From: an uncultured Clostridia bacterium
GTDB lineage: Bacteria; Bacillota; Clostridia; Oscillospirales; Acutalibacteraceae
Length of the DNA stretch: 38,955 nucleotides
Reading direction: 5' to 3'
NCBI GenBank assembly: GCA_946493765.1
Contig: CAMMAZ010000020.1
Location: 1 to 38,955 of the forward strand
Shown: in pieces, positions 15,874 to 23,463 of the stretch
Position numbering within the stretch: the first letter of the stretch is position 1
How the letters are laid out: every line of letters starts with the position of its first letter
The notes under the pieces: model-generated
Seen by the model: the letters and a program-made list of their open reading frames with translations, nothing else
Told to the model about the DNA's origin: nothing
The model's database searches: none
Translations under genes and position numbers: made by a program

Positions 15874-16974
15874 CTATTCCAGCAGGCTGCCGCACTTCCC
15901 GTTTTGATAGCGTTCGAGCCTTTCCCGCTTTTGCAGCACGGCTTTGGACAGCTTGCTGTCCAAAGGCAGTCCGGCAATATCCGCCAGAATCTGCGCGGGG
16001 GTGTTTTCTTCTTTGATTTTGCGCCACTGCACCTCGTCCGCATTTTCATATAAAAGCATGGCGGCTGCCGTCAGCTGCAGCACTGCGGTATCGGCGCCGT
16101 ATTGATCCAGCAGCACAAGCGGACCGATCACGCGTTCGCCGTGCTGCAATTTTCGCTGCGGTTCCCTTGCGTTGCGCGTCACGGTGTCCGCAATGGTGCG
16201 GTCACAGAATTTTTGTTTGGAAAGGGCGGCAAATTCCGCCTGGTCTTTTTGATCATAGCCAAACGCTTGGCATAACACCGCGTTGGTTGCGGCATAATTG
16301 CGATCAAGCAGGGTTAAGATTTCCGGATCGTTGGCGGCGGCGCTGTAATCGGTGTACCCTTTTATCCAGCCGAGATAGGCGATCACACAGCTTGCGGCGT
16401 TGTAGGTATACAGCTTGCGGGTGAGAAAGTTCCCGAAATCCGCAACGGCGCAAATACCCCGAATCTGCGGATCGTATCCGGCAAACGGTTTTGCGTCGTA
16501 CTGCAAATACGGATAGTTTTCCGACGCAATGGAAAGTCCGCCGTCTTCTATGGTGGTGCAAAAAACGGTCGATTCGGCGATCGATACATTTGAAAGACCG
16601 ATCGCATCGTCAAGCGTTTTTGCCGGGTGCGACGCGTTTTCGCAGGTGATGATATACCGCTTTTTTCCGTCGTTTATCCGCTTTTGCAGCGCACGTCCCA
16701 CTTCCGGCAGGTTGGAGCCGCCCACCGACACCAGAATCAGTTCAATGTCGGAAAGATCGGCGTTTTCCCAGGTTGCGGCTTTGAAATTGCAAACGGTGTG
16801 CGCTTTTCGCACATTTCCGAAAAAATGAACTTTGAAGGATTTTTCGCGGTTCAGTTTGTCAACAAGTTCTTTGTTGTTATCAATAAACAGCACCGCGCAG
16901 CCGGATTCCGAAAGCAGTCTTCCGATAAATCCCCTGCCGGTCTTGCCCGCACCGATAACCGCAGCTTTACGCAT
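15874..16974 (-). CDS. Mannitol dehydrogenase-family (MtlD-like) protein, second paralogue
   Basis: 366 aa, cytosolic. An N-terminal Rossmann fold shows AAVIGAGKTGRGFIG (residues 4-18). The C-terminal domain has RKLYTYNAASCVIAYLG, the region that carries the catalytic Lys in polyol-specific long-chain dehydrogenases. The usual pattern is K-x4-N-x2-H; here it is K-x4-N-x2-S, so the His is missing. Length is close to mannitol-1-phosphate 5-dehydrogenase. It overlaps the upstream paralogue by 8 bp and is the last gene of the ROK operon. Probably an NAD(P)-dependent sugar-phosphate or polyol oxidoreductase with a non-mannitol substrate. Confidence 0.82.
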   Translation of the reverse strand: MRKAAVIGAGKTGRGFIGRLLSESGCAVLFIDNNKELVDKLNREKSFKVHFFGNVRKAHTVCNFKAATWENADLSDIELILVSVGGSNLPEVGRALQKRINDGKKRYIITCENASHPAKTLDDAIGLSNVSIAESTVFCTTIEDGGLSIASENYPYLQYDAKPFAGYDPQIRGICAVADFGNFLTRKLYTYNAASCVIAYLGWIKGYTDYSAAANDPEILTLLDRNYAATNAVLCQAFGYDQKDQAEFAALSKQKFCDRTIADTVTRNAREPQRKLQHGERVIGPLVLLDQYGADTAVLQLTAAAMLLYENADEVQWRKIKEENTPAQILADIAGLPLDSKLSKAVLQKRERLERYQNGKCGSLLE

Positions 16975-18139
16975 GGATCCAGCCCCTTTCCTTGAGCAGT
17001 TTGATCTTTTCCTTAATCATCATTGCAAGCTCGCCGTTTGGATCCAGCCCGCAGACCTTTTGCAGCACGGCGTCCACCCCTTCATTTTCACGAATCTGCG
17101 CCAGTTTTTCGGCAAATATATCATTTTCGCTTTTATAATAAATGGCTGCCGCAATCGCAACACACAAATTTTCCGGTTTGATTCCATATTCCAAAACCAG
17201 TCTTGCGGAACCGACCAGCCGGTCGTCGGGACCGAGCTTTCGGATCGGATCACGGGCATTGCGTTCAATAAAATCAACGATCGTGTAATCCTGCAGCTTT
17301 GCCTTTGAGGTGCGGGTGAAAGCCAGCTGTTCCTCCAGCGGGAAATGATGTTTGGCGGACAGCGCCCTTGCCGTTTCGGAATAAACGCCGTCCAGCACCT
17401 TCAATATTCTTTCGTCATGCGCGGCGTTGGCGATCTTTTCATAGCCAAGCAGCGCGCCGAGATAGGCGGTTGTGCCGTTTGCAGCGTTATAGGTGTAGAA
17501 TTTCCGTTCCAAAAAACCGGTAAACGCTTCAACGCGCTTTACGCCTTTCATATTCGGCAATTCGCCGACGATACGGGATGCATCGACCGGCAATTCCCAA
17601 AAATTTTGCACATTGACCACCAGCGGGTCAGCTTTGCACTGGTCGGCATTCGCTTCAATCGCCGAACGCATAATGACCGCTTCGGTCACGCCCACCTGCG
17701 TGCTGAAATATTCCCGTTGTTCATCATGCAGCAACGGCGTGATTGTCTCGCGCAGCATTGCGGCCGGCTGCTTCCAGTTTTCGCAGGTGACAATGTTCAA
17801 AACGCCGCCTTTTTCACACTTTTTGGCAATACCTTTTGCCAAAATCGGCGCGATCTGACACAGATTTTTGCCGCCGACGGCGGTAAATACTGCGTCGCTG
17901 TCGGCAATCGCGCCCGCAATTTCGTCCACCTGACTAAATTTGAGCGCTTTTGCATTTGTCACCGTGCAGCTTTCTTTTGCATTGCCGAGAATGTTGACAA
18001 AATATTGTCCTCGCTCGTTGATCAGATCTGCCAGCGCGTCCGATTTTTCCACGAATGTAAACGGGATCCCGCTTAAATATAGCAGATGCCCGATAAAACC
18101 TCTCGCAATTTTACCTGCACCGAAAATGACACAGCTCAT
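16967..18139 (-). CDS. Mannitol dehydrogenase-family (MtlD-like) protein, first paralogue
   Basis: 390 aa from ATG 18139 (AAGGAA about 10 bp upstream); an in-frame ATG at 18175 would lie inside the kinase gene. The nucleotide fold is CVIFGAGKIARGFIG (residues 3-17) and the catalytic region is RKFYTYNAANGTTAYLG, in which the expected His is Asn (K-x4-N-x2-N). It is clearly homologous to the next gene but diverged, so the two may act as a heteromer or on successive intermediates. It starts 13 bp after the kinase stop. An NAD(P)-dependent oxidation of a phosphorylated polyol or sugar acid is the best guess. Confidence 0.84.
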   Translation of the reverse strand: MSCVIFGAGKIARGFIGHLLYLSGIPFTFVEKSDALADLINERGQYFVNILGNAKESCTVTNAKALKFSQVDEIAGAIADSDAVFTAVGGKNLCQIAPILAKGIAKKCEKGGVLNIVTCENWKQPAAMLRETITPLLHDEQREYFSTQVGVTEAVIMRSAIEANADQCKADPLVVNVQNFWELPVDASRIVGELPNMKGVKRVEAFTGFLERKFYTYNAANGTTAYLGALLGYEKIANAAHDERILKVLDGVYSETARALSAKHHFPLEEQLAFTRTSKAKLQDYTIVDFIERNARDPIRKLGPDDRLVGSARLVLEYGIKPENLCVAIAAAIYYKSENDIFAEKLAQIRENEGVDAVLQKVCGLDPNGELAMMIKEKIKLLKERGWIHA

Positions 18140-18152
18140 ACAATCATTCCTT

Positions 18153-19550
18153 TCAAATTTTATCAAAAATCTCAAACGACTGCTTTAACGCGGGATACAG
18201 CCTGCGGTATAACGCAAACCGCTTTAACAACAGTTTTTTGAGCGAAGGATCCGGCATCAAACGTCCTGCCGGTTTCACGCATTCTTTCGCCGCGGCGTGC
18301 AAATCGGCATACCATCCCTCTCCCACCGCCGCGATCATCTGTGCGCCGAGAACCGATACGTCGTTCTCACAAAGCGTTATCACCGGCAGCCCGAACAACG
18401 AGGCCTTCAGTCGATTGAGCACATCGTTGCCCGCAGCACCGCCTGCCACCGTTATGGATTTTGCGCGGGGCCGCCCCATGTGCTGATAGATATGATACAG
18501 ACTGAACACGACGCCCTCCATGACCGCCCAAGCAAGTTCTTTTTTCGACGTTTCGCCGCCGATCCCGAAAAACACGCCCTTTGCTTTTTCATCCCAGACC
18601 GGCGCCCGTTCTCCGTTTAAATAGGGCAAAAAAATCGGCGGCGCATGTGCAAGACATGCCGCAGGGTCAATGCCGCCGTGTGCATCCAGTTGCGTTGCGA
18701 ACTGCAAAGACCGGCCGCTTGAAGCGGTTACCCCGTAGTGTACATAATTTTGAAAGTAAGGACCGCAGATCAGTCCGTCGTCTGTGTCTGTCATGTTCGA
18801 TGTAATGATGCCGAGATGTTCGCTGGTGCCGGTTATATCAAACAGACTTCCGTTTTCCAGCACGCCCATTCCCAGCAGGCCCGCGAAAAAATCATTGCAC
18901 CCGGTATAGACCGGTATGCCCGCAGGCAAGCCGGTCTGCTTTGCCGCAGTTTGCGTGATTATGCCCGCAACCGACTGCACAGGAACAATTTCGGGCAGAC
19001 AGGACGCGTCGATTCCCGTTTCCTGCAGCAGCATTTGACTATAATGCCCGAATTTCAGGTTGCACAATCCCCGCCAGGAAAACGGATCGGTCACGCTTTT
19101 GCCGCACAGCTTTTGAATAAGAAAATCCTTTGGCATACAAACGCTGTCTACCCTTTTATTTTTAAGTCGGATATACCGCAGCCGCGGCAGCGGATAGGAT
19201 AAAATCTTGGGATGCGGCATGGAAATCTCCTGCAGGAAAGTGATACGGGAATAATGACTCAGCACCCGTTCCAGCTGTTTGCCGCCGACCGGATCGCTCC
19301 AACTGATCACGTCTTTGCCGTTGACGATGTAAGTCCCAACCTGTGAAGAAAGCCCGACCGCGCAGATCTCCTCTCCCTTTAACCGGCCGGTCGCTGCACA
19401 CAGCGCGTTATACCAGCCGTCTGTGCTGATTTCATCGTAGGGTTCTCTGCATTTTATCGACCGGCCGCTGCGATCGGTATAAAGCAGCTTGACCGAGGAG
19501 GTGCCAAGATCAATGCCCAGTATCCCGCCGTGTCCCAAAGCCGCCGTCAT
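18153..19550 (-). CDS. FGGY family carbohydrate kinase
   Basis: 465 aa. The ATP-binding phosphate-1 motif GILGIDLGTSSVKLLYTD is at residues 9-26. A substrate-loop region GCNDFFAGLLGMG and the ASKHA signature-like AVMEGVVFSLYHI and ITVAGGAAGNDVLNRL follow. The family transfers phosphate from ATP to pentoses, pentitols, hexuloses or glycerol. The ATG overlaps the dehydrogenase stop as ATGA (19547-19550), indicating tight coupling. Length is slightly short for xylulokinase (about 490-500) but within the family. Substrate unknown; the setting suggests a polyol, ketose or lactone-derived acid. Confidence 0.9.
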   Translation of the reverse strand: MTAALGHGGILGIDLGTSSVKLLYTDRSGRSIKCREPYDEISTDGWYNALCAATGRLKGEEICAVGLSSQVGTYIVNGKDVISWSDPVGGKQLERVLSHYSRITFLQEISMPHPKILSYPLPRLRYIRLKNKRVDSVCMPKDFLIQKLCGKSVTDPFSWRGLCNLKFGHYSQMLLQETGIDASCLPEIVPVQSVAGIITQTAAKQTGLPAGIPVYTGCNDFFAGLLGMGVLENGSLFDITGTSEHLGIITSNMTDTDDGLICGPYFQNYVHYGVTASSGRSLQFATQLDAHGGIDPAACLAHAPPIFLPYLNGERAPVWDEKAKGVFFGIGGETSKKELAWAVMEGVVFSLYHIYQHMGRPRAKSITVAGGAAGNDVLNRLKASLFGLPVITLCENDVSVLGAQMIAAVGEGWYADLHAAAKECVKPAGRLMPDPSLKKLLLKRFALYRRLYPALKQSFEIFDKI

Positions 19551-20560
19551 AGCCGAAACACCGCTTTGACAAATCCCTGCGGGCGCGTTCTCGCAAGGGT
19601 GATCGCGTGCGAAAATGCCGTAAGCGGCATGATGTCGGTGATCAATGGCGTAAGATCGATAACACCGTCCGCCAGCAGCGCGACCGCACGTTGGAGCGTG
19701 TTCCAGTTGTTCCCGGCGCCGACGACCCGCAGATTATTGATATGGATGTCATCCACCCGTATCTGCATGACTTTACCCCTGCCATAGCCGGCAAGCGCCA
19801 CGGTCCCACCTTTTTTAGCAACTCTTAAAGCGCTTTGTATGCAGGGTTCGATCCCGGTCGCGTCGATCACAACATCCGTTCCACCCGGATGGATTTTTCT
19901 GATTTGGGTTTCAAAATCCTGTTTTCCCGTTGCGATCACGGCATAGGCGCCCATTTTTTTTGCAACCGCAAGCCGTTTTTCGCTCGACGCACACACAACG
20001 ATCCGCCGCATTCCCATGGCTTTGGCGGCAGCAAGCATGCACAGGCCGATCGATCCGGCTCCCATGATGACCAGTGTGTCGCCAAATGCCGCGTCGGCTT
20101 TTTGCAGTGTGCCCAGCGCAACGCCAAGGGGTTCGCATAGAGCCGCCTGCTCAAATCCAAGCCCGTCCGGCAGTTCGCACAGCCCGTATACCGGGACGTT
20201 GACATATTCGGCATAGGCGCCGTCGCGCTTAAAGCCGATCTCCTCAAATTCACTGCAATAACGCCAGTTTCCGCTGCGGCAGGCGTCGCATTTTAAACAT
20301 ACGACGTCGTTGCTGCCGGTGACGCGTTTGCCGATCCACTTTGCATCCGTTTCGCTTCCCACACTTGCAACGATTCCGCTCCATTCGTGTCCGGGAACCA
20401 GCGGATAATTCGCCGCTATGTTGCCGTCCAGCACCTCAAGATCAGTGGCGCACACCGCCGCCGCTTTGACCTTGATCTGTGCAAAACCCGCAGGCGGCGG
20501 CAAGACCTCCCTTTCGGTCAGTAAGATCTCGCCCGGTTTGTTGATCACAACCGCTTTCAT
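19547..20560 (-). CDS. Zinc-dependent medium-chain alcohol dehydrogenase (polyol dehydrogenase type)
   Basis: 337 aa, cytosolic MDR enzyme. Catalytic zinc ligands C37 and H58-E59 are in VCATDLEVL and GHEWSGIV. The structural-zinc lobe has four Cys (C88, C91, C94, C102) in CLKCDACRSGNWRYC. The NAD fold shows VIMGAGSIGLCML. Relatives oxidise sorbitol, xylitol, threonine or galactitol-1-phosphate at a secondary alcohol. The ATG overlaps the ROK gene stop as ATGA (20557-20560). It is the first enzyme of the operon. The substrate cannot be fixed from sequence. Confidence 0.9.
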   Translation of the reverse strand: MKAVVINKPGEILLTEREVLPPPAGFAQIKVKAAAVCATDLEVLDGNIAANYPLVPGHEWSGIVASVGSETDAKWIGKRVTGSNDVVCLKCDACRSGNWRYCSEFEEIGFKRDGAYAEYVNVPVYGLCELPDGLGFEQAALCEPLGVALGTLQKADAAFGDTLVIMGAGSIGLCMLAAAKAMGMRRIVVCASSEKRLAVAKKMGAYAVIATGKQDFETQIRKIHPGGTDVVIDATGIEPCIQSALRVAKKGGTVALAGYGRGKVMQIRVDDIHINNLRVVGAGNNWNTLQRAVALLADGVIDLTPLITDIMPLTAFSHAITLARTRPQGFVKAVFRL

Positions 20561-21696
20561 TTGTTATCGTCCTTTCCTACCCGTATGTGCTTTACCGACC
20601 GTTCAACCGCGATCAGCGCCGCGCCGAACGCCGCGTTTTCAACATCTGTCACCGAAAAAGACGGCGGATTGTCCCCGCTGATCGCCTGCACACAGTGCAG
20701 AAATTTATCGTAAAACAAATCCTGATACCGCCACATATCGCCGCATAAAACAATGTTCTTGATATGCAGCAGCGTGGACGCGTTGCATATTGCTGCGGCA
20801 AGCTGTGCCGCCATATCTTCAAACAGCAGCACGGCTTTGCTTTCTCCGTTTTTTGCGGCTGCCGCCAACCGGTCAAACGGTTTTCCATAGCGCCTTGCCA
20901 TTCCTTCTTGCGAGGCATAAGCCTCCAGACAGCCTTTTTTTCCGCAGCTGCAGGGCGCGCCGTTCGGCACCGCACAGATGTGCCCCAATTCAAACATTCC
21001 GGGGCGGTCAAAGATGCTTCCTTCCAGCATGACCGCCATACCGATACCGTTATCCACACGCAAAAGAATCACATTTTCAGTCTTTGTGCCGGCCGACTGC
21101 GCATATAAAATACAGTTCGGATCGTGTTCGACCAGCACCGGCAGTCCGAAACGTTCGGAAACCAACGATCCCAGCGGCACCTGCGCCCAATCTTTACAGT
21201 GCGGCAAACTCACCGAAACGCCGTTTAGCGCGTCGACCTGTCCTTGCATCGCAATACCGATACCCAGTATGTGATGTCCGCCTGCCGTTTGCACAATTGC
21301 ATCGGTCAGCTTGTATATATCCGAAAGCAATATGTCTTTTCTTCTGAAATCCGCCGGTTTTGACAGCGTTTTCACTATTTTGTTTTGCAGATTCACCACC
21401 ACCGCCTGTAGTCCTGAACTGTTGATGTCCAGTCCGATGCAAAAGTGTTCCGCTTCATTTACCGCAAGATAAGACGGTGTGCGCCCCGCCCCGGCGCCTT
21501 CGATTTTTTCCGGCTTTGTTTCAACAATATATCCACTCTGGATCAGCCGCGCGGTAATATTGGAAACAGCGCCCCAACTCAAATTCGTCCACTGTTCCAG
21601 CTGCTTGCGGGTGACCTGCCCGCGCGCCCTTATCAAACCGAACACATCCGCAGCGTTCGCCTGTTTCATATCCTGCTGATTGATATATTTTTTCAA
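20557..21696 (-). CDS. ROK family transcriptional regulator (XylR/NagC type)
   Basis: 379 aa, TTG start at 21696. The TTG is supported by AGGGGGT 7 bp upstream and by the family-typical opening MKKYINQQDMKQAN. Residues 15-60 are a winged HTH (GQVTRKQLEQWTNLSWGAVSNI). From 85 on is the ROK fold: CIGLDINSSG, VEHDPNCI (D192) and the zinc motif H239 with CSCGKKGCLE (C249, C251, C256). Promoter and operator-like palindrome lie immediately upstream, with only about 18 nt of leader. It heads its own operon, so it probably regulates itself, the enzymes and the divergent lactonase gene in response to a sugar. Confidence 0.92.
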   Translation of the reverse strand: MKKYINQQDMKQANAADVFGLIRARGQVTRKQLEQWTNLSWGAVSNITARLIQSGYIVETKPEKIEGAGAGRTPSYLAVNEAEHFCIGLDINSSGLQAVVVNLQNKIVKTLSKPADFRRKDILLSDIYKLTDAIVQTAGGHHILGIGIAMQGQVDALNGVSVSLPHCKDWAQVPLGSLVSERFGLPVLVEHDPNCILYAQSAGTKTENVILLRVDNGIGMAVMLEGSIFDRPGMFELGHICAVPNGAPCSCGKKGCLEAYASQEGMARRYGKPFDRLAAAAKNGESKAVLLFEDMAAQLAAAICNASTLLHIKNIVLCGDMWRYQDLFYDKFLHCVQAISGDNPPSFSVTDVENAAFGAALIAVERSVKHIRVGKDDNK

Positions 21697-21713: not shown

Positions 21714-21750
21714 CTTGACAATTATATCACGCGGTGATATAATTGTCAAG
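21714..21750. promoter_or_regulatory. Symmetric bidirectional promoter-operator of the ROK divergon
   Basis: The arm CTTGACAATTATATCAC (21714-21730) and its exact complement (21734-21750) flank the 3-bp centre GCG. Each strand therefore carries a consensus promoter: plus TTGACA 21715-21720, spacer 17, TATAAT 21738-21743; minus TTGACA 21749-21744, spacer 17, TATAAT 21726-21721. The two promoters occupy the same DNA and exclude each other. The 37-bp palindrome is also a natural operator for the ROK dimer. Confidence 0.9.
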
Positions 21751-21822: not shown

Positions 21823-22656
21823 GTGAAAAATCTCAAAGAAAAAATGCTGAACACAAAACTAACGGATGGTCAGATCGCGCTTTTCTATCTCGGGCAGGAG
21901 GGTTTTCTCGTTCAATACAACGGCGTTTACCTGCTGATCGACGCTTATCTTTCCGATTATGTCGACAGAAACTGTTGTTCAGATGAGGTTCGCTGGGTGA
22001 GGAATTATCCCGCGCCGATCAGTGGCGGCGCGCTGGATTTTGTGGATTATGTTTTTTGTTCCCATGCGCATTATGACCACGCCGATCCCGACACCCTCAA
22101 GGCCATATCCGCCGCTAACGGCAAAGCAAAATATATCGTCCCCGCGCCGGTCGCGGACACCATCTCGGACTATGGCGTCGATCCGAAAAATATCGTGCGG
22201 GCATATGACGGGATACCGATCCCGCTTGCCGGCTGCGACGGCATTGTAACGCCGGTCGCCGCAGCGCATGAACAGCTGCATGCCGATGAAAACGGCAACT
22301 ACAGAGAATTAGGATATAAATTCGATCTTCATGGCACAATGCTGTTTCATGCCGGCGACTGCTGCGTTTACGACGGACTTTGCGATAAGCTTGGCAAACT
22401 CGATGTCGCCATGCTGCCGGTCAACGGGCGGGACTATTTCAGATTACAGCGCGGTATTGTGGGGAATATGGATGTCAATGAAGCGATCGAGCTTGCCGTA
22501 TCGACGGGGGCCGAACTGTTGGTGCCGATGCATTTTGATCTGTATGAGGTCAACCGCGTCAGCGCCGCGTGTGTTGCGCAGTGTCTGGAACAAAGCGGCG
22601 GGAATTTATGCTATCATATCTTCCGGCCGGGTGAAAGATTTATTTTTGAAAAGTAA
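21823..22656 (+). CDS. UlaG-like metallo-beta-lactamase-fold hydrolase (L-ascorbate-6-phosphate lactonase family)
   Basis: 277 aa from GTG 21823, preceded by AAGGTGG (5-bp spacing). The upstream in-frame stretch overlaps the promoter palindrome and the ROK gene, so longer starts are rejected. Metal-binding motif CSHAHYDHADP (H81, H83, D85, H86) and later FHAGDC and PMHFDLYEVN fit the UlaG branch, which hydrolyses phosphorylated lactones in the cytosol. It is transcribed divergently from the ROK/dehydrogenase/kinase/MtlD operon from the shared promoter, so it should act in the same pathway, for instance by opening a lactone made by one of the dehydrogenases. Confidence 0.87.
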   Translation: MKNLKEKMLNTKLTDGQIALFYLGQEGFLVQYNGVYLLIDAYLSDYVDRNCCSDEVRWVRNYPAPISGGALDFVDYVFCSHAHYDHADPDTLKAISAANGKAKYIVPAPVADTISDYGVDPKNIVRAYDGIPIPLAGCDGIVTPVAAAHEQLHADENGNYRELGYKFDLHGTMLFHAGDCCVYDGLCDKLGKLDVAMLPVNGRDYFRLQRGIVGNMDVNEAIELAVSTGAELLVPMHFDLYEVNRVSAACVAQCLEQSGGNLCYHIFRPGERFIFEK

Positions 22657-23433: not shown

Positions 23434-23463
23434 TTGACAATAGTGTGTTATATACAGTATAAT
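23434..23463 (+). promoter_or_regulatory. Promoter of the PadR/HAAS operon with a possible PadR site
   Basis: TTGACA (23434-23439) and TATAAT (23458-23463) with an 18-bp spacer. The perfect odd palindrome TATACAGTATA (23451-23461) overlaps the -10 box, where binding of a PadR dimer would block transcription. The leader is very short: GGAGGTGG begins at 23470, about where transcription should start. Confidence 0.75.

Follow-up and report, generated by a model that had tools for sequence, protein, structure and literature searches.

The locus and its genes

The window, by which we mean the whole 38,955-nucleotide stretch of DNA that was analysed, contains two divergent transcription units separated by a palindrome. 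The leftward operon, whose successive genes overlap by a few bases, starts with a ROK-family regulator, and the rightward unit starts with a metallo-beta-lactamase-fold (MBL) hydrolase:

15874..16974, minus strand: mannitol-1-phosphate-dehydrogenase-like protein 2 (domain and model matches)
16967..18175, minus strand: mannitol-1-phosphate-dehydrogenase-like protein 1 (domain and model matches)
18153..19550, minus strand: FGGY (xylulokinase-like) sugar kinase (domain and model matches)
19547..20560, minus strand: Zn-dependent dehydrogenase of threonine/polyol type, second gene of the leftward operon (domain and model matches)
20557..21696, minus strand: transcriptional regulator of the ROK family, with an SD-like GGGGG 8 nt ahead of its TTG start at 21696 (PF00480, E 4e-39)
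21714..21750, no strand: palindrome, read here as dual promoter and operator (inverted-repeat search; kept in relatives)
21823..22656, plus strand: MBL hydrolase, weakly UlaG-like, GTG start with AAAGGTGG upstream (PF12706)

A sequence-only reading of the same DNA had called this locus a ROK divergon, correctly in view of the PF00480 match. The regulator combines a ROK domain with an N-terminal winged helix, and aligns through its helix-turn-helix (HTH) with Lmo0178 and with the ROK regulator of known structure 1z05; its MarR-type HTH match is weak (E 9e-4) and below the cut-off. The same reading's 'lactonase' stands on weaker ground: the divergent gene encodes an MBL-fold hydrolase, but scores for a UlaG-type lactonase fall far under the cut-offs (43.3 bits with the UlaG model, against a curated cut-off of 306). 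Elsewhere in the window, at 23434-23463, TTGACA-18-TATAAT precedes the gene for a PadR-like regulator and that for a HAAS-domain protein.

A palindrome that reads as two promoters

Positions 21714-21750 form a 37-bp palindrome, CTTGACAATTATATCAC-GCG-GTGATATAATTGTCAAG, in which 17-nt arms (21714-21730 and 21734-21750) are 100% complementary around a 3-nt loop. Between 20000 and 23500 there is no other inverted repeat of 12 nt or longer within 60 nt. Twenty resamples of the window under a Markov-1 model had perfect inverted repeats (loop of 3-8 nt) no longer than 8-12 nt, against the 17 nt of the real sequence. The palindrome is present as one copy in its own genome, where the reversed control pattern gave no matches and a one-sided pattern with up to 3 mismatches located no additional site.

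Promoter scoring gave 12/12 on each strand, for TTGACA, 17 nt and TATAAT, with TG one base ahead of each -10; together with the inverted-repeat search, this bears out to the letter the earlier description of 17-bp arms around GCG that read as a promoter on both strands. The layout is TTGACA/ATTATA-N11-TATAAT/TGTCAA, so that each -35 lies directly against the -10 that serves the opposite direction:

21715..21720, plus strand: -35 TTGACA of the rightward (MBL) promoter (12/12 together with its -10)
21735..21743, plus strand: extended -10 TG-A-TATAAT of the rightward promoter, the -10 itself at 21738-21743 (sequence and promoter scoring)
21744..21749, minus strand: -35 TTGACA of the leftward (ROK operon) promoter (12/12 together with its -10)
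21721..21729, minus strand: extended -10 TG-A-TATAAT of the leftward promoter, the -10 itself at 21726-21721 (sequence and promoter scoring)
21725..21739, no strand: inferred core of the ROK operator, TATCAC-GCG-GTGATA, within the spacer common to the two promoters and meeting both -10 boxes (retained at two-way and one-way sites)

About 1e-8 exact dual promoters would be expected by chance in the 2.16-Mb genome. Symmetric elements offering two polymerase orientations within one region define a prokaryotic bidirectional promoter, and both 12/12 promoters lie in the same 35 bp. The -10 boxes are separate, and the locus accordingly falls outside the type with a shared -10 and starts about 10, 18 or 23 bp apart. 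Transcription is predicted to start 7 nt past each -10, near 21714 leftward and near 21750 rightward; the predicted starts are 36 bp apart and would give leaders of approximately 18 nt for ROK and 72 nt for MBL. As the layout is drawn, opposite polymerase orientations on the palindrome must be mutually exclusive.

The perfect 17-bp stem and 3-nt loop could also be taken for an RNA hairpin, a terminator or a cruciform. Nearly none of the palindrome would be transcribed from its own predicted starts, no T-run is present, and the letters are exact promoter hexamers, which do not vary as the loop is free to do. An RNA hairpin or terminator was rejected on the first of these grounds, and the whole class of explanation is extremely unlikely.

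Conservation among relatives

A scan of the genomes of 84,980 species for TTGACANNTATA-N11-TATANNTGTCAA returned 27 stretches, and most of the Clostridia matches read TTGACAATTATATCA(C/A)NNN(G/T)TGATATAATTGTCAA. The sequence-only reading had suggested looking for the palindrome in related genomes; it proved to be conserved in some 15 different gut Clostridia, placed between an MBL gene and a ROK or dehydrogenase operon that runs the opposite way. Nearly all of these sites have MBL on one side and a ROK-ADH-kinase-MDH-MDH or ADH-kinase operon on the other. The ROK proteins at conserved sites are just 32-57% identical to that of the window, and the window's dehydrogenase is 62-73% identical to most of its counterparts in relatives. 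Across Clostridia MAGs, variation in the 35-mer is nearly confined to the centre and one covarying pair. In several relatives a ribosome site follows directly after the palindrome, leaving no space for another promoter.

In L056 and L065 the ROK gene is relocated behind MBL, and in L059 it was not seen nearby; in all three the palindrome still separates MBL from the dehydrogenase (ADH) operon. The divergent gene pair is thus the constant feature of these sites.

Relatives were also gathered by homology to the MBL protein, without use of the palindrome. Five matches from this search with an adjacent divergent ROK gene (the window, L081, L086, L087 and L089) have both promoters at 6/6 plus 6/6, and altered forms with ROK adjacent occur in L088/L101, of which L101 is the longer piece, and in L093. 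MBL relatives found in this way without an adjacent ROK gene had no such palindromic site. At L101:1023-1083, the space between MBL and ROK holds two overlapping, shifted operator cores, TTGACAAACGTATCAAGAGTTGATATAATTGATTATATCAAAACTTGATATAAATGTCAA, in place of one palindrome. Symmetry is broken there, yet TTGACA-17-TATAAT is present for each direction, giving consensus promoters face-to-face with one operator per direction. L093 keeps the ROK-side promoter; the MBL-side promoter of its palindrome is degraded, and MBL has another promoter-like sequence, TTGACT-17-TATAAT, farther upstream; the palindromic arrangement is therefore not obligatory.

A strict search for the ROK protein among 60 relatives recovered only its own genome, and ROK was not found in the closest genus members searched. 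A peptide-pattern search of genome contigs yielded no ROK relatives, which looser searches and the palindrome pattern did find. Palindrome matches in other phyla (L046, L048, L055, L058, L060, L062, L067 and L068) were set aside, having different cores and mostly lacking TATAAT on at least one strand, as were many matches with 1-3 mismatches that resemble unrelated promoters, for example L027/L028. Viral scans gave AT-rich matches.

Similar elements were encountered in other settings. At L070:701-735, a perfect dual-consensus palindrome, TTGACAATTATAGCGCAGTGCGCTATAATTGTCAA, lies between divergent genes for a vsr-like endonuclease and a C5-cytosine methylase; its different core suggests that it is probably an independent second origin. 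L027, L028 and L031, from the same order (family f14), share a conserved TTGACAATTATATGCGTGTCGTCGGAAATTGTCAA-type element before a substrate-binding lipoprotein gene, with TTGACA at both ends and one good -10 only.

The ROK protein and its putative operator

The recurrent inner core at the conserved sites is TATCA(C/A)-N3-(G/T)TGATA. Across genomes the site is tied to the regulator, including the regulator's own gene. In the sampled family f21, a symmetric core of the C/G or A/T type occurs in six genomes (G376, G447, G453, G498, G536 and G545), all of which carry this ROK; in the other two ROK-bearing genomes the site is decayed (G496) or variant (G600). Part of the earlier operator proposal therefore holds, in that an operator-like site tracks the ROK gene; the part that assigned the whole palindrome to the operator needs narrowing, as the ROK operator is probably the inner core alone, about 15-19 bp, with the outer arms serving as promoter.

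The recognition-helix motif of the window's ROK is S40-W41-G42-A43-V44-S45, and its family form, S-W-G-x-(V/M)-(S/T), aligns with the HTH of Lmo0178 and that of 1z05. Residue 43 matches the variable core letter in 17/17 cases, being A or G with TATCAC and T with TATCAA. On the tree this match represents one change, so it is consistent with binding and does not amount to repeated covariation; it was downgraded as proof that ROK binds the core.

Loss of the second -35 at one-way sites

Sites without a close divergent gene were gathered by one-sided pattern and ROK-homology searches. They precede an rpiB-like gene (L118, L119), a GH2 glycosidase gene (L107, L137) or the ROK gene itself (L099, L139, L196). 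All of them retain a core and one good promoter, L196 with a variant core and TATATT. The TTGACA of the unused strand has fallen to 0-2/6 (L196 scored by eye), with the exception of L137 at 5/6, whereas both -35s are 6/6 at intact sites with two closely divergent genes. Fisher's test of second -35 against divergent gene gave p of about 0.001, or 0.015 with L137 counted as keeping, for relatives that are not independent of one another. A same-genus pair with 78% identical ROK proteins shows the same pattern: G536, with MBL beside ROK, has both -35s, and G498, with ROK lacking an adjacent MBL and a co-directional gene upstream, has lost the second and keeps the ROK-side -35 only.

Retention of the second -35 where two genes diverge closely, and its loss elsewhere, assigns the outer arms to the promoter and, probably, the inner core to the regulator. 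Both directions of the promoter appear, from this comparison, to be under selection where both are used. The proposal that the palindrome is a promoter in both directions is thereby strengthened, since relatives retain both -35s only where two genes diverge closely. The 5/6 second -35 of L137 is possibly a relic. The GH2 genes at L107:1501-1535 and L137:1501-1535, in two genomes of one genus, are seemingly distant targets of the same ROK. At L057:940-974 (G059, contig C12), a full palindrome precedes a GHMP kinase/phosphoglucomutase operon; a divergent AraC-type regulator gene lies about 170 nt off, which makes this a weaker case of divergence, and a related ROK is encoded elsewhere in that genome.

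L057, fully symmetric despite the distance of its divergent gene, fits a simpler account in which the whole 37-bp palindrome is the ROK operator, the TTGACA and TATAAT on two strands are by-products of its symmetry, and only one promoter direction is real. The perfection of the palindrome, and its frequent extension 2-5 bp past the -35s, point the same way. However, one-way sites of the same ROK subfamily keep the core and have lost the unused-side TTGACA, L101 retains both promoters after its symmetry broke, and both divergent genes have ribosome sites close behind the element. This account is consequently improbable. TA stands ahead of TTGACA at one-way sites too, so part of the extended symmetry is promoter context.

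Template switching at quasi-palindromes, rather than selection on two promoters, could in principle have made or kept the symmetry, as perfect arms in distant relatives and some symmetry past the -35s might suggest. Such correction would also tidy the centre triplet, which is often asymmetric (GCG, GGG, GCA), and one-way sites do not turn symmetric; we regard this origin as very unlikely.

Proposed mechanism

We consider it likely, on the comparative sequence evidence, that the palindrome is a sigma-A promoter complete in both directions, whose common spacer contains the operator of a repressor. When the repressor is off the DNA, sigma-A RNA polymerase would dock either way on the same 29-35 bp. 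Leftward transcription would yield ROK, the dehydrogenase, the kinase and the two polyol-phosphate-dehydrogenase-like genes, and rightward transcription the MBL hydrolase, never both at once. A ROK dimer would bind the TATCAC-N3-GTGATA core, which overlaps the spacer as well as the upstream margin of each -10, and would block both directions, its own gene included; ROK thus probably shuts both. A sugar-type ligand would release ROK from the core.

Polymerase competition may itself be the regulatory point, with consensus directions strongly inhibiting each other and the repressor merely gating access. This is a stronger, compatible version of the two-way promoter with a built-in operator. Competition is expected from the geometry and from work on E. 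coli bidirectional promoters, in which a better -35 stimulated its own direction (bdcR excepted) and greatly reduced the opposite one (PMC12825309); here both -35s are at consensus. On the other hand, escape rather than binding may limit full-consensus promoters, and ROK repression may make firing too rare for collisions. The chances of this stronger version seem to us to fall a little short of even.

The weakest element of the sequence-only reading is its fixed output ratio between the two directions. The sequence past the -10, the leaders and the start codons differ between the sides, so identical hexamers could still yield unequal or varying output.

Comparison with known systems

The palindrome resembles bacterial bidirectional promoters (Warman, Grainger; PMC12825309, PMC10268837) in its near-symmetric core with two exclusive polymerase orientations, often located between divergent genes. 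It is particularly like PacrA/acrR, where both directions are repressed by the divergent regulator AcrR itself. Known bidirectional promoters have shared or overlapping -10 elements, starts 10, 18 or 23 bp apart and low basal activity. In contrast, each direction here has its own full -35, TG and -10, the predicted spacing is 36 bp, and an operator occupies the common spacer.

As in Tn10 tetR/tetA, one palindromic operator region underlies two overlapping, opposed promoters, including that of the repressor's own gene. E. coli bioA/bioB, with BirA, likewise has overlapping divergent promoters under a shared operator. The promoters of tetR/tetA and bioA/bioB are offset and are not known to be related by the operator dyad, whereas at the present locus one dyad relates the operator and both full promoters.

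With NagC, Mlc, XylR and RokB the regulator shares membership of the ROK family, a winged helix at the N-terminus, a setting among sugar operons and palindromic, AT-rich, promoter-overlapping sites (PMC4856308, PMC9104551). The core TATCA(C/A)-N3-(G/T)TGATA is unlike the sites reported for XylR (GTTT-N7-AAAC) and RokB (TTTGTTC-N11-GAACAAA).

A literature search of partial coverage returned no description of a dyad with two complete consensus promoters and an operator core between them. Neither bidirectional promoters nor operators that divergent repressor genes share are new in themselves; the two full consensus promoters on one dyad are what sets this element apart from the type with a shared -10. 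Tentatively, and with the balance somewhat against it, this may be a separate bidirectional-promoter architecture: a single dyad, two complete back-to-back consensus promoters and a repressor core in the spacer, used repeatedly, by this ROK family and perhaps separately by the vsr/methylase pair of L070, in which induced cells would choose orientation event by event and outputs would be anticorrelated at the single-molecule level.

Weak natural E. coli bidirectional pairs showed no interference; their strength did not suffice for polymerases to compete unless it was raised (PMC12825309). The palindrome is the natural opposite extreme, with consensus on both sides. Its divergent, single-direction, shifted and decayed versions are matched natural controls under one repressor family, so that the choice of orientation, mutual exclusion and noise in expression can be tested directly.
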